A DNA stretch of 64,000 nt from Devriesea agamarum (lineage in GTDB: Bacteria > Actinomycetota > Actinomycetes > Actinomycetales > Dermabacteraceae), in contig NZ_LN849456.1 in assembly GCF_900070355.1 (NCBI RefSeq), forward strand, positions 744,001 through 808,000, in the 5' to 3' direction. Below are positions 31,414-46,571 of this stretch, one piece after another. The position numbers and the translations under genes were made by a program. Position 1 is the stretch's first letter, and each line of letters opens with the position of its first letter. The notes under the pieces were generated by a model, which saw nothing but the letters and a program-made list of their open reading frames with translations, ran no database searches and was not told the DNA's origin.

Positions 31414-34491
<3,078 letters not shown>

Positions 34492-34617
34492 TCACCAAGG
34501 TGATGGACATTTGGCAAGACCGCGACGAGACTCACCCCACCGTTCAGCTGAGCGTGCTGAGCACCAACGGGCTGAGCTGCATAGGTACCGATCGCCGACC
34601 CTAAGCGGCGACAATTT

Positions 34618-34649
34618 CCCCATATAGCAATGATTGCTCTATATAGGGG
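34618..34649. repeat. AT-rich imperfect palindrome upstream of ligA
   Basis: CCCCATATAGCAAT and its near-complement ATTGCTCTATATAGGGG lie head to head around a 1- to 2-base centre, giving an imperfect palindrome of 32 bp. ATTGCTCTAT recurs as a direct repeat at 34688-34697. It lies about 130 bp upstream of ligA and after the MetE-like gene, so it could be an operator or a terminator. Confidence 0.5.
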
Positions 34650-34674
34650 CCATTACGCCACTTAATAACGATTA

Positions 34675-34684
34675 CCCGTACGGG
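34675..34684. repeat. Perfect 10-bp palindrome CCCGTACGGG
   Basis: A perfect palindrome in the 255-bp gap between the MetE-like gene and ligA, close to the 34618-34649 palindrome. No gene is present in the gap. A protein-binding role is conceivable. Confidence 0.4.
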
Positions 34685-34743
34685 CCGATTGCTCTATTTC
34701 GGGAGGATTATCGTCCGAACCAGATTCAGCCCGTTACCGCCTT

Positions 34744-35904
34744 TTAAGGGGCGACTCGCTCCGCCCAGGCAGGTGCCGTTCTGAGTAAGCGCTCCACGTC
34801 CTGTTCTCTCAGCAAACGCCGGGAAACTAGAGGCATCGCCGGATCTGGCATCGTCTGTATGGTCGCGGGTACGTCAGCACAAGAGCCACGGGATGAGACC
34901 TGGCTCCCGCGCCGGTGAGCGACCAAGGTGAAACCTCCGCATTCACGGGCGGAATACCCCAGTTCGCGCCAGGTCATAAAGAGGCTGTCTAAGTCACGTT
35001 CAAGACAGCGGGGATCGACTAAAAACCATAGGTCAATGCCCCGACCACGTAGCTCCGCCAACATTTCCCAGGTCGCTCGGCCCGGCTGGGACGCTAAGGA
35101 TCCGCACCGCACCGGGTCAACCGCAACCGCGGATAGACCGGCGTCAATAGCCGCGCGCACAGAATCAGCATCTTCGCAGCCAGCGAGAACCACGTCAGCC
35201 GCTGAGCTCGCTCGGATCTCGGTGAGCACCTGGGCCCACAGCTGGCCTGCATCCGGCGCGGGGAGCGGCGGATACATTCGGTACCCAGATGCGGTCGGGA
35301 TCTGCCCGCATCGAACCCGAGTTAAACCGTCCTCCCACAAGAAAATGGTCGGACGTAGCCCCGGTACTCGCAGCTGAAGGTCTGAGCAATGGCCTGCCAC
35401 GCCGTCCGCTAAGAGGTACGGAAGGTCTCGCAGAGCCCCACAGTCAGACAGCGTTCGTTCACCGGAGGCGAGATAAGTGCTTGCTCCCAGGGCTACCGGG
35501 CCCAAGGCCATCACGCTCGCTCGTCCTTCGTACCCGAACCAGGCGATCTGAGCGGCGTCAAGGAGCTCCGTCCGGGCGGCTCGCGCACGTTCCCAATCTC
35601 GACCCTGGCCAGTTCCGATGCGCCATCCGTAGGAGGTGAGGTCACCGGTGGTTCCCAACAGGGCCAGGGTCGCCACCAGCGGACTGTCGGTGGGAAGGAA
35701 CGGAATGGCACCAATTTGCGACTCCGGATCGGATCCGAGTAAGGCCCTCACCCGCGTCAGGCTCGCTCCTACGCCCGACAGCATGCCGTCATCCTTAGTC
35801 CCGCTGCCACAGGTCAACCAGGTGCCATCCCCGGTTACTGTCACCAGCCGTGGTGGCTCCGGAGTAGGGCCACCGGCTGCGGGTCCGAGCTGGTTACCAG
35901 TCAT
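34744..35904 (-). CDS. MetE-like C-terminal-domain protein, divergent
   Basis: A 386-residue protein at the place where actinobacteria (for example Mycobacterium, between ligA and mnmA) carry a short cobalamin-independent methionine synthase homologue. Shared marks are [42 protein letters not shown] and the [11 protein letters not shown] plus DLWFLVDP blocks. The usual His-x-Cys zinc site region reads VLAGCED, so a His ligand seems missing; enzymatic methionine synthesis is doubtful. The ATG at 35904 overlaps the mnmA stop by 4 nt. The role is unknown, possibly tRNA thiolation- or sulfur-linked by context. Confidence 0.65.
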
Positions 35905-37001
35905 GAGCGGCTCTCCCGTCCGCAAATGGTGCCGCAAGCTAGCACCCGATCACCGACGTCATCGACGCCGTAGAGAACCAAGGTTTGACCAGCGGCGACT
36001 GCCCGTAGCGGAGTGTCAAGATCCACGGTGAGCTGGTGGGTATCGCAGCGGGATACCCGCGCGGGAACCGTGCTGCCATGGGCCCGGATTTGCACGGTGA
36101 CGTGCTGACCCTCGTGAAGCGGTTCAAATAAGATCGGCGCCTCCGCGGTGATCTGGCGGGTGCTGAGCAATTCTGATGGCCCGACGATAATCTGACGGGT
36201 TTCCGGTCGAATATCCAGGACATACCTCGGACGACCATCCTGAGCTGGACGGTTTAACCCCAGGCCTTTGCGCTGGCCCACCGTGAACTCGTGGGTACCT
36301 CGGTGTTCTCCGAGCAGCCCGCCATCGGCATCGAGAATCTCACCGGGCTGTTCACCAAGACGCGAGCGAAGGAAACCTTGGGTGTCGCCATCCGGGATAA
36401 AGCAAATGTCATAGCTGTCGGGCTTGGTGGACACACCGAGTTTCCGGGCCCTCGCTTCGTCACGCACCGCTTGCTTATCCGGGGCATCTCCGAGCGGGAA
36501 GAGCGCATGAGCTAGGGCATCCGGTCCCATCACTGCAAGCACATAGGACTGGTCTTTGGGCAGGTTTTTCGCGCGGTGCAGCGACGGACGACCATCGGGT
36601 CCCCGGGTATCGAGGTGGGCATAATGACCTGTTGCCACAGCGTCAAATCCGAGGATCTGAGCTCGTTCGAGCAGTGATGCGAATTTGATCCGTTCATTGC
36701 AGCGTACGCAGGGGTTGGGAGTCCGGCCAGCCTGATATTCGGAGAGGAAGTCGGTGATCACGGTCTGTTCAAAGTCCTCGGATAGATCCCAGACGTGAAA
36801 AGGAATGCCGATCCGGTCGCAAGCGCGCCGTGCATCCGCGGCGTCTTCTACTGTGCAGCATCCGCGCGAACCAGTTCGACGTTCATCGCGGGTGCGGGAT
36901 AAAGCCATATGGACACCGACCACGTCGTGCCCTAACTCAACCGCCCGCGCTGCGGCCACCGCGGAGTCCACTCCGCCACTCATCGCTGCCAATACCTTCA
37001 C
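35901..37001 (-). CDS. mnmA: tRNA-specific 2-thiouridylase
   Basis: A 366-residue enzyme that thiolates U34 of tRNA-Lys, Glu and Gln using ATP and persulfide sulfur. The PP-loop is [12 protein letters not shown] at the N terminus; catalytic Cys101 ([12 protein letters not shown]) and persulfide Cys200 ([10 protein letters not shown]) are both present. The tRNA-binding region and C-terminal beta barrel (GLNRPAQ to the end) are intact. The cysteine desulfurase that supplies sulfur is encoded 11 bp upstream, and the MetE-like gene overlaps by 4 nt. Confidence 0.96.
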
Positions 37002-37012
37002 GGCGAGTCAGT

Positions 37013-38227
37013 CTAGCCTCGGGCACCGACCCGCCGAGCTGCCGCGAGCGCGCTGGGAAGTTCCTTAAGGAACGCATCTACATCCGACATCGTGCTCGAC
37101 CACCCCAGTGAAATCCTCAGAGCTCCCGCTATGTGGTCAGCGGGAAGGCCCATTGCTTCGAGCACCCGGCTGGGCTGGGATACCCCGGCCCTGCACGCCG
37201 ACCCGACACTCGCGTCAATACCGGCATGATCCAGCACAAATAATAGGGTGTCGCGATTAACCCCGGGGAAGGTGGCGTGCACTATGTGGGGGCTGCGCGG
37301 GGCCCCCTGTGCTGTCACCATCGCCGTGGGGTCAATGTGCTGGATTCCTCGCTGAATATGCGCAGCCAACACAGGGTATTGATGCCGCCCCGGATCATCC
37401 ACACAGTCGCGCACGGCTGTTGCCAGTGCCGCCGCCCCAGCGACATCGAGCGTTCCCGAACGCACATTCCGTTGCTGTCCGCCGCCGGTGGATACCGTGC
37501 GCAATGGGCATGTAGATGGCGCGATCAGCAGTCCGGAGCCTACGGGGGCACCAATTTTGTGTCCGCTCAAGCTGACCGCATCGAACTGGTCGAGCCGGAG
37601 AGGAATATGCCCTAAAGCCTGGACTGCATCCGTATGAAAGAGTGCTCCGTGGCGGCGTGCAACAGCTGCGAGTTCATCGATTGGCTGGATTACCCCGGTC
37701 TCGTTGTTGACCGCGTGGATGCTCACGAGCTCAGCTGGTTGCTGATGGAGCATCTGGTCGAGCTCTGCTGGGCTGCACAGTCCGTTGTTATCGACGGGAA
37801 GCACACGCAGACGCGTGGCCGTATCGGTCTCAGTTCCTGCGAGGTCACGCGCCGTTTCCAACACGGCCGGATGTTCGGTGGCTGAGACCACTAGGCGCGC
37901 CGCATTGCTGTTGGAGTTGTTGTTGAAGTTGCGGGTAGCGATACCGCGAAGCGCAATATTGTCTGCTTCGGTGCCACCCGAGGTCAGAATCACCCAGGAT
38001 GCGGGGACATCTAGTGCCTGCGCAATGTCGTCCACCGCATCATCGAAAATCCTTCGCGCTGCCCGTCCGCTGGTGTGGGTCGCTGATGCGTTGCCGACTA
38101 CGTCAAGGGCTGTCAGCAGCGCTTCGCGGGCTGATGGTCGCAGAATTGAGGTGGCGGCGTGGTCGAGGTAGACCCGCCTGTTTGTTGACCTGGCGCAATC
38201 CGGCTTTTTCCCGATCGGTATGGTCAC
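37013..38227 (-). CDS. iscS: Cysteine desulfurase (NifS/IscS type)
   Basis: A 404-residue fold-type I PLP enzyme giving alanine and enzyme-bound persulfide from cysteine. It begins with VYLDHAATSILRPSAREAL, has HPAVLET for PLP stacking, the PLP lysine Lys224 (SLSGHKIGAPVG) and the active cysteine Cys345 (SVGSACRAG). It lies directly upstream of mnmA, so it probably feeds sulfur to tRNA thiolation, and perhaps Fe-S assembly. An asparagine-rich FNNNSNSNAA loop at about 101 to 110 is unusual. The symbol is by neighbourhood and could equally be nifS. Confidence 0.92.
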   Translation of the reverse strand: MTIPIGKKPDCARSTNRRVYLDHAATSILRPSAREALLTALDVVGNASATHTSGRAARRIFDDAVDDIAQALDVPASWVILTSGGTEADNIALRGIATRNFNNNSNSNAARLVVSATEHPAVLETARDLAGTETDTATRLRVLPVDNNGLCSPAELDQMLHQQPAELVSIHAVNNETGVIQPIDELAAVARRHGALFHTDAVQALGHIPLRLDQFDAVSLSGHKIGAPVGSGLLIAPSTCPLRTVSTGGGQQRNVRSGTLDVAGAAALATAVRDCVDDPGRHQYPVLAAHIQRGIQHIDPTAMVTAQGAPRSPHIVHATFPGVNRDTLLFVLDHAGIDASVGSACRAGVSQPSRVLEAMGLPADHIAGALRISLGWSSTMSDVDAFLKELPSALAAARRVGARG

Positions 38228-38291
38228 CTGCTGCCTCCTTCTTTCTCTGCCCCGCCCTCAGCTGCACGTCGCGGTTTTGGCACCCGAAGAA

Positions 38292-39446
38292 TCACCAGGG
38301 CTTATCTTGCCGATTTGAATCTCCGCTGTCACTTCGTTCGCCGCGCCCTCGATTTGCTTGCCGGTTACGTTCGTCGAGCCTATCTCGCTGTTCCTTGCTT
38401 TCACTAGGCCCTGGGGTCGGCGCTATACCAGGTTTACCGGTGCCGTTAGGGTCATTTTTCCTCGGCGTATGATTCGGATCTTCTAGCGGTTTAATTCTCC
38501 CATTTTCTTGATTATTTTCATTCGATCCTGAATCTTCTTGAGATTTTTTCTTGTCAGCTTCAGATTGTTTATTGTCTTCAGATTTTTCCCTATCCTTGGG
38601 CTGCTCCTTATTATTCGGATCGTCTTTAGGATTCTCAGGGGTTTTGCCCGCCTGCCGATCAGCTTGTTCTTTCTTGTCGCGCAGCCGACCAGCAGTGCCA
38701 CTCGATTTACTCTTATCGTCAGAGTTATCGCGACCGCCACCGGATTCGCAGTGTGCAAGCGCAGCTTGCGCCTCTTTCAGCCGCGCGGCTCTGGCCGCAG
38801 GATCTTGCACAATATCGGCTTGGCGTTCAATAGAAATGGCGAGATTGGTACGAATTTTACATTCAGCATAATGAGGTTTGTTAAGGTCCCAGCCGCCATT
38901 CCAGGTAGATAGCGCGGTCCGCAGCAATTGCTCCGCCTCGACGTTTTTACCTTCAGCGAGGGCGGCTGTGCCCTTATTAAAGTAAATTAGGTATGGTTCA
39001 AACCAATTTGCCGGCTCCAACAGGTCGAGCCGATGCGCGGCATCACTATAGTTTCCGTTGTAGTATGCGAACGACGAATACGCTTCAACTATCGGCATTG
39101 TGAGGAACTTTGCCGATAGGCCGAACATGCCTAGCAGCGGAACTGCCAGAATGCCAAAAAATCTCATTCTTCTGCGACGCAGTTTAGAACGGTCTATTCC
39201 TCGGCGCCTGAGTCTGGCGACTGCACGTCGATGGCGAAGTATTTCGCGAAGATTGGCAATGTCACCAGACATCGTGGAGGTGATACCAGCGCGACGCACT
39301 CGGCGTCGTGCACGTCGGGGCCTTTTGGCCTCATGAGAGCGCACCGGCTTGGTCTCGTGTGAGCGCACCAGCGCGTCATCTAGATCCAAGGTATCTGCCG
39401 CGGAATGCTCTTGCAGGAGGCGCAACCTGTGCGTGGACATACTCAT
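38292..39446 (-). CDS. Membrane-anchored TPR-like protein with long charged tail (BatC-like position)
   Basis: A 384-residue protein. An Arg-rich N-terminal region (RRARRRVRRAG) precedes one membrane helix (about 92 to 110, FFGILAVPLLGMFGLSAKFL), then a short TPR-like helical region (about 118 to 230, YYNGNYSDAAHRLDLLEPAN; YFNKGTAALAEGKNVEAEQLL). The last 150 residues are low-complexity and highly charged (Lys, Glu, Asp, Asn, Gln). In Bat operons the equivalent BatC is also a TPR protein that binds the VWA proteins. The gene is clearly AT-rich compared with neighbours. Its ATG overlaps the VWA stop by one base. Confidence 0.7.
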   Translation of the reverse strand: MSMSTHRLRLLQEHSAADTLDLDDALVRSHETKPVRSHEAKRPRRARRRVRRAGITSTMSGDIANLREILRHRRAVARLRRRGIDRSKLRRRRMRFFGILAVPLLGMFGLSAKFLTMPIVEAYSSFAYYNGNYSDAAHRLDLLEPANWFEPYLIYFNKGTAALAEGKNVEAEQLLRTALSTWNGGWDLNKPHYAECKIRTNLAISIERQADIVQDPAARAARLKEAQAALAHCESGGGRDNSDDKSKSSGTAGRLRDKKEQADRQAGKTPENPKDDPNNKEQPKDREKSEDNKQSEADKKKSQEDSGSNENNQENGRIKPLEDPNHTPRKNDPNGTGKPGIAPTPGPSESKEQRDRLDERNRQANRGRGERSDSGDSNRQDKPW

Positions 39447-40477
39447 CAGGCACCTCCCCCGCGCGGCGGATCACCCTGAGATGTGGTCGAACGCTTCCTC
39501 ATGGACTTCAGGGTATAAATCGGAAGCCGGTAGGTGAGGACCCCGATCTCCCAAATGATCAAACCTGACGCAATGACCGCGGCCATCCAATACCACTCGA
39601 AATATATTGGAAGGATGGTTGGATCTGGAGCAAGAATCTCATTAAACTTCACACCGTTGAGATTATCTTTCAAATCACCCCCGGGAGCCACCCGGTGATA
39701 ATAGCGAACACCCAATTCCGTCGATACATTTTCAAGTTGTCGCGAATTCAAACGTGACAGCGCATCCGAACCGTCACTGTCACGAATATATTTTCCATCC
39801 TCTTGAAAACCGCTGGCTTTCATACGACCACCCTGAGCAGTCCCATATCCGAGCACGGCTCCGCCGGATATAAATTTTTTATCCGTCACAAACGAATTCG
39901 ATGCCCGGCCGTCTGTGTTTTCGCCATCCGTGAACACGTACACCAGTATTTTTGACGAAGGATCCTCCTCGTGTGCGGATGCAATTGCCGACTTCAACAG
40001 TGGGATAGGGCGGTCAATGTTGGACCCTTTGGAGTACCTTGTAGGTTCCGTCGACATGGTACTAATCCAGGTATCAACTGCCTCGGCATCAGTGGTGAGC
40101 GGGAGCTGTTGGGTCGCTGACGAATCAAAACCAATAATGCTGTATCGAGAACCTTGAGTCATCGCCATAATGGTGCGCATATCCACCTTGACGCCTTCTA
40201 ATCTTGGCTTAGATCCATCCCAGTCTTCGGCGACCATAGATCCTGTGAGGTCAACAATGAAAAAGACATTAGCGTCCAGTCTCTTATGCTGTTCATAATT
40301 TAGTTGACTTACTGGCCTGAGCCCCACGGCCAGCAGGGCGAGCACAAGGAATAGGCGTCGCATCCAGTCAACCCGAAACCCGCGCCGCGACCCAATAAAC
40401 GATAGGCAAACCAGTATCATGAATCCGAAAATTGGAATGATTGCCTCTAGCGGCAGCAGTGGCAGAAAAGTAGTCAT
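39446..40477 (-). CDS. VWA-domain membrane protein (BatB-like)
   Basis: A 343-residue membrane protein: two N-terminal hydrophobic helices (EAIIPIFGFMILVCLSFIG; LFLVLALLAVGL), a von Willebrand factor A domain (about 70 to 300) with MIDAS residues in IVDLTGSMVAED and VFTDGENTDG, and a C-terminal helix (WYWMAAVIASGLIIWEIGVL). The MIDAS looks able to bind metal and hence a protein partner. The ATG at 40477 overlaps the upstream VWA stop by 4 nt. It is AT-rich. Probably acts with the MoxR ATPase as a chaperone-like complex at the membrane; targets unknown. Confidence 0.83.
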   Translation of the reverse strand: MTTFLPLLPLEAIIPIFGFMILVCLSFIGSRRGFRVDWMRRLFLVLALLAVGLRPVSQLNYEQHKRLDANVFFIVDLTGSMVAEDWDGSKPRLEGVKVDMRTIMAMTQGSRYSIIGFDSSATQQLPLTTDAEAVDTWISTMSTEPTRYSKGSNIDRPIPLLKSAIASAHEEDPSSKILVYVFTDGENTDGRASNSFVTDKKFISGGAVLGYGTAQGGRMKASGFQEDGKYIRDSDGSDALSRLNSRQLENVSTELGVRYYHRVAPGGDLKDNLNGVKFNEILAPDPTILPIYFEWYWMAAVIASGLIIWEIGVLTYRLPIYTLKSMRKRSTTSQGDPPRGGGA

Positions 40478-41499
40478 GAGTGGGTCTTTCCAGCAATGAT
40501 GAGCAGCATCGCAACTGCCAGAACCGCGGCGATCCACGGCCACAGCGGCTGATCTATCGGACGAAGTTGCGGGTTCGCCCCACCCGCACTAGCCTGCGTT
40601 TTCTCAACTTTTTCCAGAAACTTAGGCACCGCGTCCGGGTTGCTCGAGGAGTAAAAATCTCCACCGCGCCGCAGCGTAACGGTTCGCAACTCTCCTGCGC
40701 ACGTAGCACCACACTGGTTAGGGCCAGGATAAAACGAGAACAGCGTAATATTTCTATTTCCTACAAAGTCGGCAGCTTGATCTAAATTATAGATAGACTT
40801 TCCATTGACCTCATTATCAGTCACAAGTATTATTGATCGACTACGTTTTTTATCCGTATGATCAAAAAGAGTTGCGCACGTTGCCAGTCCATCGGGAACA
40901 ATCGAAGCCTGATTTGGAACCCCTTGCGTCCCATTTACAAATTCCGCATATCTGCGAACTTTCTGGGGACTATATATAACCCTGCCTTTGCGATAGGCAC
41001 CCTCATCAAAATCAATTGCCGAGGCGCCAGCACTTAATTCTCTTTTCGCTAGCTTATAATCGGTCGTCAAAGGGAAGATAATACGGGAGGTCGAGTTAAA
41101 AATCGATAGGGCGATCCGTTCACCATGAAAATCCTCGACCATACTGGAAAACGCCTTCAGCGTCTCACTGTCATAACCGGACATGGAACCCGACACATCG
41201 AGACATATTACAATGTCTCGGTGTGGAAAAGTATCCGAACTAATATGCTCGGTCGCTAGCCGTCCCGCAAGCAGAGAAATACTCAACACAGCAATTCCGG
41301 CAACAATAACCCGGATCATCCCCAAAGCCCTGGCCCCCATCCTGGCCACCCGATAAGAACTAAGCTCTTCAAGGAACTCGGTGTTTGCCACCACAATGGA
41401 CGGGGTTGGATGAATTATTCTGCTTATATACGCTAAGACCCATATTGCGAGCGCAACCACAATAATCGTGATGGTGACGTTCATCATTGCCAAGACCAT
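40474..41499 (-). CDS. VWA-domain membrane protein (BatA-like)
   Basis: A 341-residue protein with two N-terminal membrane helices, a VWA domain with a complete MIDAS DxSxS motif (ICLDVSGSMSGYDS) and ILVTDNEVNGK, a cysteine pair (NQCGATCAGEL) and a C-terminal helix (PWIAAVLAVAMLLIIAG). The first helices (IIVVALAIWVLAYI; IRVIVAGIAVLSISLL) match the Aerotolerance/Bat layout. The gene is AT-rich. Upstream and downstream overlaps (16 and 4 nt) place it in a tightly packed operon with MoxR, DUF58 and the second VWA protein. Confidence 0.84.
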   Translation of the reverse strand: MVLAMMNVTITIIVVALAIWVLAYISRIIHPTPSIVVANTEFLEELSSYRVARMGARALGMIRVIVAGIAVLSISLLAGRLATEHISSDTFPHRDIVICLDVSGSMSGYDSETLKAFSSMVEDFHGERIALSIFNSTSRIIFPLTTDYKLAKRELSAGASAIDFDEGAYRKGRVIYSPQKVRRYAEFVNGTQGVPNQASIVPDGLATCATLFDHTDKKRSRSIILVTDNEVNGKSIYNLDQAADFVGNRNITLFSFYPGPNQCGATCAGELRTVTLRRGGDFYSSSNPDAVPKFLEKVEKTQASAGGANPQLRPIDQPLWPWIAAVLAVAMLLIIAGKTHS

Positions 41500-41966
41500 T
41501 GACGAATCACCTCTCTCACGCGACGTAACGAATTAGCTAGTTCCACGTCACTGTCGATAGCAAATCCGGGTTCGTAGAGACTTTCCATCACTGCACAGAT
41601 ATCTTTCATCCGCGCATCCTGTTTAATATCTTCAAGTTCTTTAACGTTCGTATTTTTGCCGCTGGTAAGCGTGACGAATCGTCGGAGCATCGCTATGAGC
41701 TCATAATGGGCCTGATCCGCCGCAAGCTCTTGACGATAGTGACGCACCCCAATATCGTTGGTCGCTCTTAAAAACTCAGCGATCAGCGCTTCATATTCAT
41801 TGGGGGCGGCGTGATACACGTGTGCCTCAGCGATCATCCGCGTCCGCCACAGGACCAAAAAGACGATGAACGAGGCAATCATTCCAATCGCTAACCCCAG
41901 TATGATCCAGACCGGTGAATACTGAGCAGGCCCCACAATCTGGGAGATATTCTCAGCGTCTCCCAC
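41484..41966 (-). CDS. Small membrane protein of the MoxR/VWA operon
   Basis: A 160-residue protein with one N-terminal helix (VWIILGLAIGMIASFIVFLVLWRT) and a helical cytoplasmic domain (AEAHVYHAAPNEYEALIAEFL to the end). I do not recognise a specific family; the position is where Bat operons often carry a DUF4381-like partner. The GTG at 41966 is chosen for its AAGGGGA site six bases upstream. It overlaps the DUF58 stop by 14 nt and the VWA start by 16 nt. Confidence 0.65.
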   Translation of the reverse strand: MGDAENISQIVGPAQYSPVWIILGLAIGMIASFIVFLVLWRTRMIAEAHVYHAAPNEYEALIAEFLRATNDIGVRHYRQELAADQAHYELIAMLRRFVTLTSGKNTNVKELEDIKQDARMKDICAVMESLYEPGFAIDSDVELANSLRRVREVIRQWSWQ

Positions 41967-42846
41967 GGCGTCCCCTTCGACCGAGTATTTTGATGATCGC
42001 GGGCACAACGTCCGACTCCCCCGAAACCAACACGTCGTCAATCCCTAATCGAACGAGCATCCCGTCGATCTGCTGCCGGCGCCGCTTTTTCCACTTTCGG
42101 ACTTCGTTCTGCACCGTCAGAGAGGAGCGCGCAAACGATGGGATATGACGTGGCAAATCAATATCCGTGACCTGACGGCGCATCGATTTAGGTTGCAAGG
42201 GATCAGCGTCGCGAACCCTAATGGTGAGCACATCGTGTCTAAATCTGAGCTTCCGTAACCGGTCATAGTCAGAAGGATGAGGATGCGCATCGTCCGTGAG
42301 AAGCACCAAAAGACTTGGTTGAGAGATGCAATAGCGGGCTTGGTCGAGGAGCCATGCGATATCTGCAGGCGGGGAACTCCACGTTGTGCTCCGCTGCACT
42401 GTTTGCAGCACCCGTTCCAGATGAGCTGTCGCCGAGCGAGCTGGCAGTGTCACCGGCGCACCGCGGTGACCAGCCACAAGGCCCACCAAATCCCCATGCC
42501 GCGAGGCCGCATAGCATATGAGGCCGGCTGCGGTCAGCATCGCATTCGATTTGACAGTGCCATCAGCCGCGGTCGCTGACATACCACTGGAGGTATCAAC
42601 TAGCAGGCAGATGTGCCTGACCCGTTGCTCGGTAAACTGCCGAATCAGCGGTTCATTCGAGCGAGCGGTGGCTTTCCAGTCGATGTCGGAAATTCGATCG
42701 CCTTGCTGATACGTACGCAGGTCATCGAAATCCTCACCGCTCCCCTTAAACAGAGACCGCCCTCGGCCCTGGATGATTCCTCGGGCGCGATAGGACGTGT
42801 GGAAATCAATTTTGGCTCGTACCCGGGTCAGCAGAGAAGTCGCCAT
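41953..42846 (-). CDS. DUF58 domain protein of the MoxR/VWA operon
   Basis: A 297-residue soluble protein. The diagnostic DUF58 block FKGSGEDFDDLRTYQQGDRISDIDWKATARSNEPLIRQF is at about 34 to 72, followed by a VWA-like fold with LLVDTSSGMSA in place of a perfect MIDAS. Such proteins sit next to MoxR ATPases in most bacteria and probably bridge the ATPase to membrane VWA proteins; the function is not settled. Ends in an Arg/Gly run (RRGRRGRR). Start lies 14 bp after the moxR stop. Composition is normal for the genome, unlike the VWA genes downstream. Confidence 0.85.
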   Translation of the reverse strand: MATSLLTRVRAKIDFHTSYRARGIIQGRGRSLFKGSGEDFDDLRTYQQGDRISDIDWKATARSNEPLIRQFTEQRVRHICLLVDTSSGMSATAADGTVKSNAMLTAAGLICYAASRHGDLVGLVAGHRGAPVTLPARSATAHLERVLQTVQRSTTWSSPPADIAWLLDQARYCISQPSLLVLLTDDAHPHPSDYDRLRKLRFRHDVLTIRVRDADPLQPKSMRRQVTDIDLPRHIPSFARSSLTVQNEVRKWKKRRRQQIDGMLVRLGIDDVLVSGESDVVPAIIKILGRRGRRGRR

Positions 42847-42860
42847 GTCACAGACTCGCC

Positions 42861-44012
42861 TCAGGGCGCCGGAACGGTGGTAAAGACGGTGTCGATAATA
42901 TCCTCGGTTGTTTGTCCCGCCGCTAGGGCATCGAAAGTCAGGACCAACCGATGGCGCAGCACACTGTGCCGCATTGCCCGTATGTCATCGGGAACGACAT
43001 AATCTCGTCCGCACAACAGGGCATATGCCTGCCCGATTCGCATCAGAGCGAGCGATCCACGAGGGGATGCACCCACCCGCACAGACTGGTCAATGTTTCG
43101 CACCGGACGCGGGCCCGATCCGCGGGTAGTGAAAATCAGGTCCACCACGTACCGCTTAATCTCCGGGTGCACATACACAGCATTGACGGTTCTTTGAAGA
43201 AACAAGACATCGTCCATCGTCACGGAATCAACCGCCTGTTCAGGCGCCTGGAGCCGGCCCTCCGTGGATCGATCGAGGATCTCATGCTCTTCAGCAGGCT
43301 GAGGGTAGGTGAGCACTTCCTTGATCAAAAATCGGTCCATCTGCGCTTCAGGAAGAACATACGTGCCTTCCTCTTCAATCGGGTTTTGCGTAGCCAACAC
43401 CATAAAAGGATCGGGAAGCCGATAGATCTCTCCGCCGATAGAGGTTTGTTTCTCCTGCATGGCTTCGAGCATCGCCGACTGAGTTTTAGCGCTAGAACGG
43501 TTGATCTCGTCGAGCAGCACCACATTGGCGTGCACCGGACCGAGCTGAGTCGTAAAATTTCCGGTCCGATAATTGAAAATCTGGGTGCCGATAATGTCGT
43601 TCGGCATTAAGTCAGGCGTGCACTGGATCCGATGAAAGGTCCCCCCGATGGCAGTTGCTAGGGCCTGAGCAGCTGTCGTTTTCGCAAGGCCAGGCACAGA
43701 CTCCATCAAAACGTGACCTTTAGCTGCCAAGGTGGTCAACAGAGCAACGCGCAAGTTTTCCTGTCCGACCACCCGAGATGCGAACACCCGAGAAATTGTG
43801 CGCGTAATCTCAACGGCTCGTTCCAGGTCCTCCGGCGGCACCGCGTGATGGCGAGTGATCTTTGCTGGCTTCGGCAGGACGATATCCACGCGAGACGGCC
43901 TGGTTTTCCCCTCGCGAAGTGCCCGATTATCCTCCTGAGACACCCCGCGGCCATCGCGGGCGGGTTCCTTGCCCGAACTCGTCGACGAATCGCCGACAAC
44001 CACCGAATCCAT
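42861..44012 (-). CDS. MoxR-family AAA+ ATPase
   Basis: A 383-residue AAA+ ATPase. A hydrophilic N-terminal extension of about 55 residues precedes the core: Walker A ESVPGLAKTTAAQ, Walker B VVLLDEINRSSAKTQSAMLEAM, sensor 1 VLATQNPIEEEG, and GASPRGSLALMRI in the lid. MoxR proteins act as chaperones with VWA proteins, for example assembling metalloenzymes or responding to stress. It is first in the operon with DUF58, two VWA genes and a TPR gene, and divergent from glgX by 76 bp. Confidence 0.92.
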   Translation of the reverse strand: MDSVVVGDSSTSSGKEPARDGRGVSQEDNRALREGKTRPSRVDIVLPKPAKITRHHAVPPEDLERAVEITRTISRVFASRVVGQENLRVALLTTLAAKGHVLMESVPGLAKTTAAQALATAIGGTFHRIQCTPDLMPNDIIGTQIFNYRTGNFTTQLGPVHANVVLLDEINRSSAKTQSAMLEAMQEKQTSIGGEIYRLPDPFMVLATQNPIEEEGTYVLPEAQMDRFLIKEVLTYPQPAEEHEILDRSTEGRLQAPEQAVDSVTMDDVLFLQRTVNAVYVHPEIKRYVVDLIFTTRGSGPRPVRNIDQSVRVGASPRGSLALMRIGQAYALLCGRDYVVPDDIRAMRHSVLRHRLVLTFDALAAGQTTEDIIDTVFTTVPAP

Positions 44013-44088
44013 AGGTAATGACTCTCCCGTTTGGTCGGGTTCTTATGACTGGTCCTGATCCTAACCCGCCCAATGCAATGATGTTCCG

Positions 44089-46329
44089 GTGTCATCATGC
44101 GCGAGTAGCTCTCCTCTCCATCCACCGCTGGGGCTCACCATCGATTCCGCTGGCCGGGGGACATTCGCAGTAGCGGCCCCGCGAGCCCAAGCAGTTGACC
44201 TGTGCATTATGAGGTCAGGCACCGAGCATAGAGTTCGGTTGCAGCAGTACTGGGACGGTGTGTGGTGGGACGAGGTCGAAGGCATGTCTCCCGGCACCCA
44301 TTACGGAATTCGAGCGCATGGCCGCTGGGATCCATCCGCGGGTTTTTGGTACAACCCACATAAATTGCTCGTTGATCCGTATACCCGCGGGGTCTCTCAC
44401 GTCTCAACATTGCTGGCCTCCATGTTTTCTACCCCAGTCGACTCCATGTTGCGACCGAGCTCCTGGGATCCAGATCCCGTCGATAACGGCGATCACATGG
44501 TGCACTCGGTCGTCGTGAGCAACACGTTTGATTGGAACGGGGACGCTCCTGTGCGCATTCCCTGGCGGGACACCGTGATTTATGAGCTACATGTTCGCGG
44601 TTTCACCCGTCAGTTACAGGCGCTTCCCGCCGCGCTACGAGGCACCTACGCAGGCTTAGGGCACGAGGCAGTGACCTCGTATCTCCGAGACCTCGGAGTG
44701 ACCACCGTCGAGTTATTGCCGATGCACGCCATGATGGACGAAGCGCATCTGGTCCGATGCGGCCTCACCAACTACTGGGGATACAACACCCTGGGGTTTT
44801 TCGCTCCCAACCCGCAGTACGCAACTCAAGCGGCTCAACGCGGCGGGGCCCAAGCTGTGGTCCACGAGTTCAAAACCATGGTGGCGTCCCTGCACGCCGC
44901 GGGTATTGAAGTGGTGCTGGACGTAGTCTACAACCACACCGCAGAAGCGGGCGCGCAGGGACCGACGCTATCTTTGCGGGGGTTGGATACCCTCGAGTAT
45001 TACCGCGTGAACGGTGGCAATTTCGATGACGTCACCGGAGTCGGAAACACCGTGAATGTTCAGTCGCATCATGTGCGGCGATTGATTTTGGACTCTTTGC
45101 GGTACTGGGTGGAGCAATGTCATATCGACGGGTTCCGATTTGACCTCGCAACAGCGCTCGGCCGCGGGGAGCGCGACTTCCGTCCCGATCACCCGCTGCT
45201 AGCTGCTATCCAAACGGATCCTGTGCTCAGTCAGGTCAAACTGATCGCTGAACCGTGGGATATCGGCTGGGATGGCTGGCAAACAGGACGATTCCCAACA
45301 CCGTTTGCCCAATGGAACGACCATTTCCGTGACGATACCCGCACCTTCTGGCTCGAGCGGCCTGCTGCGCGACAACGCGGAGAAGACGATGGGTTCGGCG
45401 GAGTGCGTGACCTCGCGACGCGCCTGGCCGGCTCAGCTGATTTGTTTACGTGCGGCGATCCGGCTGGCCTGCCGTCAGGACGCCATATGCGCACCCCCTA
45501 TGCGTCGGTCAATTTCGTGACCGCGCACGACGGCTTCACCCTGTATGACTTAACGGCGTACGAGCGCAAACATAACGAAGCGAACGGGGAAGACAACCGG
45601 GACGGTAGCAGCTCCAACCGGTCCTACAATCACGGCGTCGAAGGGGAGCCTTCCGATCTGTCCGATGAGGTAAGGCATGACCTCATGCGGCGCCGGTCTC
45701 GATCAGCTCGAAACCTCATGGCTACTCTGCTGCTGAGTGCAGGCACACCGATGCTGACGGCGGGCGACGAAGTGCTGCGCACACAGCGCGGGAACAATAA
45801 CGCGTACTGTCTCGATAACGAGACCACCTGGGTTGCCTGGGACCATACTGAGCTGCAAAAAGATTTCAGGGCTACGGTGCGTGAGCTTCTGGCTATCCGT
45901 CGTCGATACCCGCAGTTACGGCCTGAAACGTTCCTGAGGGACGCGCGCAATGGGTCGGACGGTCCGCGATCCGTAGCTTGGTTTGATGAACGTGGAGATC
46001 GGATGAGCCATGAGTCCTGGGCCGATCCCCGTCGCAACACACTGATTGCGCTGCTTCCTGGCATGCCACTGCCCATTTCCACAGTTTCAGCACCCCGAGT
46101 AGATAGGGACGGGTTTGCAGAGATTCCCTACCGCAGTCTTCTGCTGATCATGCACGGAGGTCATGAACCATGCCGCGTGATTCTGCCACCGGCTCCGTGG
46201 ACCGATAGCGTCGCTCGGGTTGTTTTTGCATCCGAACCTACTGGGCAGTTAACAAACGGTCGCATTATCGAATCGGCGATCGATATGCCCGGGCCCAGCA
46301 TCGTTGTTCTTGAGCTGCCGGGCACCTGA
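44089..46329 (+). CDS. glgX: Glycogen debranching enzyme (GlgX type)
   Basis: A 746-residue GH13 isoamylase-type enzyme that cuts alpha-1,6 branches from glycogen limit dextrins. It has an N-terminal CBM48 domain (to about 150), and the GH13 barrel with DVVYNHTAE, the nucleophile Asp in GFRFDLATALGR, the acid Glu in LIAEPWDIG and the VTAHDGFTLYDL block, then a C-terminal beta domain. The GTG at 44089 has no Shine-Dalgarno site; AATGAT six bases upstream may be a -10 for a leaderless mRNA. It heads a glgX-glgE-glgB run on the plus strand. Confidence 0.93.
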   Translation: MSSCASSSPLHPPLGLTIDSAGRGTFAVAAPRAQAVDLCIMRSGTEHRVRLQQYWDGVWWDEVEGMSPGTHYGIRAHGRWDPSAGFWYNPHKLLVDPYTRGVSHVSTLLASMFSTPVDSMLRPSSWDPDPVDNGDHMVHSVVVSNTFDWNGDAPVRIPWRDTVIYELHVRGFTRQLQALPAALRGTYAGLGHEAVTSYLRDLGVTTVELLPMHAMMDEAHLVRCGLTNYWGYNTLGFFAPNPQYATQAAQRGGAQAVVHEFKTMVASLHAAGIEVVLDVVYNHTAEAGAQGPTLSLRGLDTLEYYRVNGGNFDDVTGVGNTVNVQSHHVRRLILDSLRYWVEQCHIDGFRFDLATALGRGERDFRPDHPLLAAIQTDPVLSQVKLIAEPWDIGWDGWQTGRFPTPFAQWNDHFRDDTRTFWLERPAARQRGEDDGFGGVRDLATRLAGSADLFTCGDPAGLPSGRHMRTPYASVNFVTAHDGFTLYDLTAYERKHNEANGEDNRDGSSSNRSYNHGVEGEPSDLSDEVRHDLMRRRSRSARNLMATLLLSAGTPMLTAGDEVLRTQRGNNNAYCLDNETTWVAWDHTELQKDFRATVRELLAIRRRYPQLRPETFLRDARNGSDGPRSVAWFDERGDRMSHESWADPRRNTLIALLPGMPLPISTVSAPRVDRDGFAEIPYRSLLLIMHGGHEPCRVILPPAPWTDSVARVVFASEPTGQLTNGRIIESAIDMPGPSIVVLELPGT

Positions 46330-46374
46330 TCTGATCGCCGCCCTGGCCTCACCGCACCCTGATCTGATCGCCGC
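46325..46374 (+). repeat. 17-bp direct repeat after glgX
   Basis: CCTGATCTGATCGCCGC occurs at 46325-46341 and again at 46358-46374, 33 bp apart. The first copy overlaps the glgX stop codon. It looks like a local duplication of the gene end. The rest of the 242-bp gap before glgE shows no gene. Confidence 0.7.
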
Positions 46375-46571
46375 AGAGAACAGCAACAATCACAGAGAAC
46401 ATCGGGAAGAACAGGACTGCATACCCGTAGTCCCTTCGCCGGAGGTATCAACCCAGTAGGCTTAAAGCACTGCTGCTAAAGGCCCCGCTGAGGTAGGCCA
46501 GATGCTGCAGTTCGGTGGTGCGAGCCAAGGTCGATCACCGGCGGGACAACGTAGCCGAGGGGCTCATACCG

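Follow-up and report, generated by a model that had tools for sequence, protein, structure and literature searches.

AT-rich VWA and TPR genes in a Bat-type MoxR operon of Devriesea agamarum: probable in-place drift of resident genes

Four genes within a MoxR operon of Devriesea agamarum are much richer in A+T than their neighbours, which raises the question of whether they were acquired or changed composition where they stand. The segment they occupy, positions 38292-41966 of the window (the whole 64,000-nucleotide stretch of DNA analysed), has a GC content of 50.6%, compared with 59.5% in 20 sampled stretches of the host genome (400 kb of 2.96 Mb, with mechanical ORFs as background genes), and 1.8% of the sampled host windows of 3675 bases are equally low in GC. 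The operon and the two sulfur genes that follow it are arranged as listed here.

42861..44012, minus strand: moxR, MoxR-family AAA+ ATPase with AAA_3 and AAA_lid_2 (Pfam AAA_3, E 1e-58; GC3 0.622)
41953..42846, minus strand: DUF58 protein (Pfam DUF58, E 1e-27; GC3 0.604)
41484..41966, minus strand: p160, 160 residues with one N-terminal hydrophobic segment predicted from sequence (order-level matches, no family; GC3 0.559)
40474..41499, minus strand: VWA1, BatA-like membrane VWA protein (VWA_2, E 7e-10; GC3 0.485)
39446..40489, minus strand: VWA2, BatB-like membrane VWA protein (VWA_2, E 8e-9; start at 40489 assumed, longest ORF beginning at 40543; GC3 0.522)
38292..39446, minus strand: TPR, BatC-like protein with a charged C-terminal tail ending in ...KPW (weak Pfam TPR match, E 0.008, under the curated cut-off; GC3 0.486)
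37013..38227, minus strand: iscS, cysteine desulfurase, IscS-like (Aminotran_5, E 9e-52; GC3 0.644)
35901..37001, minus strand: mnmA, tRNA 2-thiouridylase (tRNA_Me_trans, E 1e-67; GC3 0.619)

The earlier note had judged p160, VWA1, VWA2, and TPR to be richer in A+T than moxR and DUF58 on one side and the sulfur genes on the other, and both GC and GC3 bear this out. GC is 0.571 across moxR and DUF58 (41967-44012) and 0.611 across iscS and mnmA (35901-38227), its two example patches have values of 0.374 (38450-38620) and 0.425 (40720-41070), and pooled GC3 is 0.498 in VWA1, VWA2, and TPR versus 0.624 in the four flanking genes (z = -6.3). In a ranking of 250 sampled ORFs by synonymous GC residual, VWA1, TPR, VWA2, and p160 fall at the 0.8, 1.2, 3.2, and 4.4 percent positions, and moxR, DUF58, iscS, mnmA, ligA, and a 397-residue gene between 9.6 and 40.8. 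Amino acid composition contributes as well: the AT-richest patch of TPR is its charged, Lys/Asn-rich C-terminal part, so AT-richness there stems partly from the protein itself. The AT-richness is thus in part a matter of amino acid composition and in part synonymous, and amino acids are ruled out as its sole cause, since the residuals at synonymous positions are reduced as well.

The best segment of synonymous AT-richness extends from 41801, within p160, to 38306, at the end of TPR, with its start ranging over 42498-41606 and its end over 38426-38170. The latter range corresponds to the border between TPR and iscS, a gap of 64 bases at which the segment ends sharply. Since moxR and DUF58 are themselves lowish in GC3 (ranks of 18.7% and 10.9%), composition shifts by degrees towards moxR, and the compositional mosaic proposed earlier is therefore real and sharp at the TPR/iscS border but gradual at the other end.

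Codon usage is also unusual. AGA/AGG, ATA, CTA, and CAA lie above the host average in VWA1, VWA2, and TPR, with no rise in TTA, ACA, or TCA, and a one-parameter AT tilt accounts for the pooled codons only in part (98.4th percentile of 257 random triples). Pure one-parameter drift is hence insufficient, the pooled profile not being one uniform tilt, and the raised rare codons and non-uniform tilt fit weak codon selection. This codon comparison was run on full ORFs without G016, G029, and G030, ORF ends being wrongly assigned in a few loci (e.g. IscS of G016, G029, and G017, and TPR of G030). Trimmed matches were used to compare GC3 across loci, and also for AGA/AGG across relatives, whose enrichment was not significant (19/32 loci, CMH p = 0.13). 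The earlier suggestion of unusual codon selection holds in the weak sense that rare codons are raised, which falls short of selection in favor of such codons.

Atypical composition is one mark of a horizontally acquired segment, and it is present here. Among ten other low-GC3 ORFs of the host, five lack a Pfam family and one resembles AbiEii, indicating that a low GC3 is frequently a sign of accessory genes in the host. Other signs of mobility were sought around the segment. No mobility families occur among the ten proteins scanned (34744-46329), and the longest repeats in 36000-45000, a direct pair of 24 bases and an inverted one of 28 bases (79%), both lie within TPR. In a separate scan of 34000-46500, no structured RNA reached the gathering threshold. 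A defense function was considered and rejected, the one PADLOC match among six proteins being a weak one of MoxR to DolB.

The gene set at this locus recurs in the relatives. Of 35 family genomes, 34 have a match to VWA1 and one (G003) has none anywhere; larger loci were taken from 32, leaving out G013 and G033, and all 32 keep the order moxR-DUF58-VWA1-VWA2-TPR-iscS-mnmA on one strand. The position of p160, which was located in relatives by ORF and by order-wide search, recurs, as does its 14-base overlap with DUF58 (26/32 loci). Searches across the order place the closest homologs in the host family throughout: for VWA1 the 21 best matches other than itself (297 genomes), and for VWA2, TPR, and p160 the 10 best of each (149 genomes each). 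Neither a relative lacking the segment at this locus nor closest relatives outside the family were found in the 32 loci and these searches. Reading frames of the AT-rich genes are intact, and the MIDAS residues of VWA1 and VWA2 are intact in 33/33 family rows.

Phylogenies agree with this picture as far as they resolve. The VWA1+VWA2 tree groups the family, host included, at 100/100, and the tree of moxR, DUF58, iscS, and mnmA joins the host and lineage g3 as sisters at 97/100, a signal that stems from iscS and mnmA; moxR and DUF58 alone leave the host's place open to both g3 (p = 0.39) and Brachybacterium (p = 0.23). The VWA/TPR proteins have long branches in host and g3, and their resolution is weak. 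The earlier note had named two outcomes that would count against its reading: codon adaptation equal to that of the neighbours, from which the AT-rich genes in fact differ, and trees congruent with the species tree, which is what we obtained within the limits of resolution.

The sister lineage also shares the compositional anomaly. In g3, GC3 dips in the same genes (z = -5.0 and -3.7), and its per-gene GC3 profiles correlate with that of the host at rho = 0.60 and 0.80, the two highest values among 32. Divergence of the proteins does not by itself account for the dip, as iscS and the 397-residue gene are about as diverged as the AT-rich genes yet are not AT-rich, and Helcobacillus has long VWA/TPR branches without a clear GC3 dip; relaxed protein constraint alone thus does not predict it.

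Because relatives carry the same genes at the same place, AT drift in place is the most likely explanation, and we consider it probable that these are native, vertically inherited genes of a Bat-type operon. On this account, moxR-DUF58-p160-VWA1-VWA2-TPR, followed by iscS-mnmA, would have descended vertically within the Dermabacteraceae to a host lineage whose GC content is below that of most other members of the family. The VWA/TPR membrane genes, presumably under weaker codon and protein constraint, would have gone furthest in this AT drift, through synonymous change, uptake of rare codons, and an altered amino acid content. Weak codon selection would be the cause of the dip.

An unlikely alternative, though one with several observations in its favor, is that a close relative outside the sample, more AT-rich and of the host's genus or family, supplied its allele of p160-TPR by homologous replacement, with no effect on synteny. 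The fairly sharp TPR/iscS edge would suit such an exchange, as would a codon profile that goes beyond a plain AT tilt, and our searches brought up no further genome from the host's genus. The VWA tree also prefers Brachybacterium as the host's neighbour (89/88), against g3 for iscS and mnmA. This conflict is not significant, however: AU tests do not reject host+g3 for VWA1+VWA2 (p = 0.30), VWA1 (p = 0.70), or VWA2 (p = 0.23), and the grouping is part of the best tree for TPR and for p160. The other edge of the segment is gradual, and the dip is common to host and g3.

An advantage of AT-rich or rare codons under selection, such as slower translation of membrane proteins or lower expression, seems improbable: the selective rise of AGA/AGG, ATA, CTA, and CAA without TTA, ACA, and TCA speaks for it, but most Brachybacterium loci lack the pattern (11/25 lower in GC3; mean log-odds -0.03), and amino acids have shifted as well, which codon selection does not predict. 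We give a similarly low probability to locally reduced recombination, and hence less GC-biased gene conversion in the segment, a reading for which the host genus offers a single genome. The earlier note's proposal that new VWA partners were acquired, taken here as import of VWA/TPR genes from a remote AT-rich donor, is very improbable despite the atypical composition and codon usage. AU tests do not formally reject a position of the host's VWA genes beyond the family (p = 0.15; together with g3, p = 0.28), nor such a position of the host in the tree of the flanking genes (p = 0.11, one outgroup). The proposal is largely contradicted, and was set aside, on the strength of synteny in 32/32 loci, the recurrent DUF58/p160 overlap, same-family best matches, family support of 100/100, and a host+g3 grouping that no AU test on VWA1, VWA2, TPR, or p160 rejects.

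The resident genes resemble the Bat (Bacteroides aerotolerance) operon, in which moxR, DUF58, a further gene, two VWA genes, and a TPR gene follow one another in Prevotella, Cetobacterium, and Bacteroides records (the gene at the TPR position being annotated as hypothetical in Cetobacterium). The host has this order, with a TPR match under the Pfam cut-off, and two membrane VWA proteins with MIDAS, whose hydrophobic segments were read from sequence; VWA2 matches the BatB model weakly (E 6.5e-12, far under its cut-off). In each of the three records, in contrast to the host, the TPR gene is followed by one for BatD. BatD (PF13584) has no match in the host genome, and a control search found it in 2/14 genomes; we therefore speak of a Bat-type rather than a full Bat operon. 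The third position in the host is held by p160, which matches no Pfam or NCBIfam family, and iscS-mnmA follow. Identity of p160 with DUF4381 (PF14316) is not supported: none of 19 genomes has a match at the p160 position, the single match in the host, under the cut-off, sits elsewhere, at 427775, and hhalign against two DUF4381 proteins, a weak test, gave a probability of 2.5%.

Related systems suggest what the operon may do. The mycobacterial moxR1 operon (moxR1-DUF58-VWA), placed in the MRP subfamily in passages of PMC12067865, likewise couples MoxR with DUF58 and a downstream membrane VWA gene, whereas the host has two VWA genes and a TPR gene, and no ripAB among the neighbours scanned. In the NorQ/NorD pair, as described in passages of PMC13036017, a MoxR-type AAA+ protein works with a MIDAS-bearing VWA partner, and the last two residues of NorD are required for co-purification with NorQ; the host differs in its pair of VWA proteins, which have hydrophobic segments, and in the presence of DUF58, p160, and TPR. 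Judging from the families, MoxR hexamers would use ATP for remodelling by way of VWA partners anchored in the membrane, the TPR protein would be a scaffold or adaptor, and the operon may thus serve as a membrane chaperone. We drew no reading from a single-sequence structure prediction of VWA1 (mean pLDDT 44.9).

A by-product of the analysis is of more interest than the composition itself. The exact C-terminal residue of the TPR protein is Trp in all 77 profile-confirmed Actinomycetales loci, a count from which three loci repeating family genomes were removed and in which 13 of 58 loci outside the family, lacking a profile match, are uncounted, some of the remaining 45 being of the same genome or species. 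With the profile filter off, Trp ends at least 42 of 51 picked ORFs. Stand-alone TPR homologs from Bacteroidota and Fusobacteriota (Prevotella, Cetobacterium, and Bacteroides) share it (3/3), and fused VWA-TPR proteins do not (0/2). In 15 distant loci taken from a phylum-wide VWA2 search, no TPR gene was recognised downstream, so the count within the phylum covers Actinomycetales only. Among the matches listed by a keyword literature search, none concerned a terminal Trp in Bat or MoxR systems, which is no proof that it is unreported.

We tentatively propose that the Bat-type TPR protein has a long disordered tail capped by this invariant Trp in Actinomycetota, Bacteroidota, and Fusobacteriota alike. 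The tail would serve as a flexible hook, and its final residue may dock on the MoxR ring, by analogy with the C-terminus of NorD on NorQ, or else on the MIDAS of a VWA protein, which would connect the scaffold with the motor; AT drift in the host would have changed the tail and spared the Trp. The locus offers a worked example of composition that hints at acquisition where gene order, best matches, and the sister lineage indicate resident genes, and the invariant terminal Trp of the stand-alone TPR partner gives a testable handle on the assembly of Bat-type MoxR/VWA systems.

The operon of Devriesea agamarum (the host; Dermabacteraceae) comprises the first six of the following genes, and iscS and mnmA follow it:

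42861-44012, reverse strand, moxR
41953-42846, reverse strand, DUF58 gene
41484-41966, reverse strand, p160, encoding a 160-residue protein
40474-41499, reverse strand, VWA1, BatA-like
39446-40489, reverse strand, VWA2, BatB-like
38292-39446, reverse strand, TPR gene, BatC-like
37013-38227, reverse strand, iscS
35901-37001, reverse strand, mnmA

The AT-richness that the earlier note had described for the VWA, TPR and p160 genes was confirmed by GC, GC3 and synonymous ranks. GC over 38292-41966 was 0.506, compared to a mean of 0.595 in 20 sampled stretches of the host genome (a single 2.96 Mb contig), where 1.8% of equal-sized windows were as low. GC3 was 0.485–0.559 across TPR, VWA2, VWA1 and p160 and 0.604–0.644 across DUF58, moxR, iscS and mnmA. 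With amino-acid composition removed, synonymous GC ranked at 0.8% (VWA1), 1.2% (TPR), 3.2% (VWA2) and 4.4% (p160) among 250 sampled ORFs, and in a segment model the synonymous shift extended from p160 as far as the TPR end, with a gradual edge towards moxR and a sharper one towards iscS. Amino-acid content accounts for a real share of the low GC in these four genes; back-translation of the host proteins with the host's own codon usage gave 0.556 (VWA1), 0.556 (VWA2), 0.583 (TPR) and 0.557 (p160) vs relatives' means of 0.578, 0.602, 0.618 and 0.621. Elsewhere in the host, several adjoining low-GC3 ORFs, one AbiEii nucleotidyltransferase-like, form a candidate island (L079:2869-6536, a locus fetched from genome positions 900001-920000). 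A perfect 17-base inverted repeat (40431-40447/41872-41888), possibly due to chance, is shared between the N-terminal hydrophobic segments of VWA2 and p160.

Unusual codon selection, one of two explanations offered previously, was borne out only weakly. VWA1, VWA2 and TPR together use AGA/AGG for 24 of 91 Arg codons (host 8.8%), ATA for 16/67 Ile (6.5%), CAA for 19/31 Gln (27.5%) and CTA for 13/94 Leu (6.8%); AAT, TTT and TAT are likewise elevated, and TTA, ACA and TCA are not. Under a one-parameter AT tilt each gene fits within the host-ORF range, but the pooled three do not fit fully (residual at percentile 98.4 among 257 triples drawn at random). The rare-codon tendency among relatives is weak: in 19 of the 32 family loci AGR is commoner than in the flanks (CMH p 0.13), with nominal p of 0.012 and 0.024 in two genera when full ORFs are pooled.

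The relatives compared were Brachybacterium, Dermabacter, Helcobacillus massiliensis and g3, a lineage represented by the ‘Dermabacteraceae bacterium’ strains TAE3-ERU27 and TAE3-ERU5; no second genome of the host genus was among the matches listed. The other explanation, acquisition of new VWA partners, finds no support in synteny, best matches or trees. The one-strand order moxR-DUF58-VWA1-VWA2-TPR-iscS-mnmA recurs in 32/32 family loci examined, picked by VWA1 match (34 of 35 family genomes; G003 had none), moxR-DUF58-VWA1-VWA2 in 40/40 loci, and the host's 14-base DUF58/p160 overlap in 26 of the 32. The best 21 non-self matches of VWA1 (297 order genomes) and the best 10 each of VWA2, TPR and p160 (149 each) all fall within the family, which is united, host included, at 100/100 in a VWA1+VWA2 tree that included eight genera as outgroups; placing the host outside was not rejected (AU p 0.15). 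The moxR+DUF58+iscS+mnmA tree joins host and g3 (97/100) and rejects host+Brachybacterium (p 1e-7), a signal that comes from iscS (99) and mnmA (100), since moxR and DUF58 by themselves leave the host's place open. Host+g3 was within the best tree or not rejected for VWA1, VWA2, TPR and p160. The VWA-only tree preferred Brachybacterium as the host's neighbor (89/88), hinting at a conflict that the AU test did not confirm (p 0.30). The segment is best explained by vertical inheritance, accompanied by AT drift of the region and weak selection on codons; the main rival to this view is replacement by an allele of an unsampled close relative.

The GC3 dip of VWA1+VWA2+TPR against the four flank genes is shared by the host (0.498/0.624, z −6.3) and g3 (0.752/0.839, z −5.0; 0.765/0.830, z −3.7), and is smaller at fourfold sites (z −3.1; −3.4 and −1.8). 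Brachybacterium falls below its flanks in 11/25 loci (mean log-odds −0.03) and Dermabacter in 3/4 (−0.10). The g3 genomes also correlate best of 32 with the host's nine-gene GC3 profile (0.80 and 0.60), and therefore either the dip is ancestral to both or the same genes responded in parallel. Less recombination, and hence less GC-biased conversion, could contribute (PMC4450053). Branches for VWA1+VWA2+TPR are long in host and g3 (1.59 and 2.39; flanks 0.63 and 0.56), but protein speed does not suffice as sole cause, since Helcobacillus is fast (1.86 vs 0.32) without a clear dip.

MoxR (AAA_3) and DUF58 have clear Pfam assignments, and the operon genes look functional because their frames, and the MIDAS residues of the VWA domains in VWA1 and VWA2 (retained in 33/33 rows), are intact. 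BatD had no match in the host genome and p160 none among families tried; we therefore term the operon Bat-type. Prevotella, Bacteroides and Cetobacterium records share its gene order, as do Rhizobium and Agrobacterium plasmids, but with one long VWA-TPR gene. By analogy with NorQ/NorD (PMC13036017), MoxR would remodel clients via its VWA partners, with DUF58, p160 and TPR as possible adaptors. A 64-base gap (38228-38291) separates TPR from iscS, where 20/32 family loci have a 4–10 base overlap; a 397-residue ORF (34744-35937) without Pfam or NCBIfam match adjoins mnmA, also in relatives.

The host TPR protein ends exactly in Trp (codon 38292-38294; tail to about 38726), as do those of all 77 profile-confirmed loci (32/32 in the family and 45/45 in other Actinomycetales), in tails otherwise Trp-poor (0.08% of residues). 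Terminal Trp recurs in 3/3 stand-alone homologues from two other phyla (fetched loci L199:5769-6446, L200:5719-6408 and L202:5792-6514), with endings KNW in Prevotella, NRW in Cetobacterium and KDW in Bacteroides; it is absent from the fused Rhizobium and Agrobacterium proteins (0/2) and from the product of the second TPR gene in the Bacteroides operon. In NorD, deleting the last residue weakened NorQ co-purification and deleting the last two abolished it (PMC13036017). We hypothesize that the terminal Trp has a docking role. Of the two findings, the invariant terminal Trp is the one to follow up; the AT-rich composition is of little interest in its own right.
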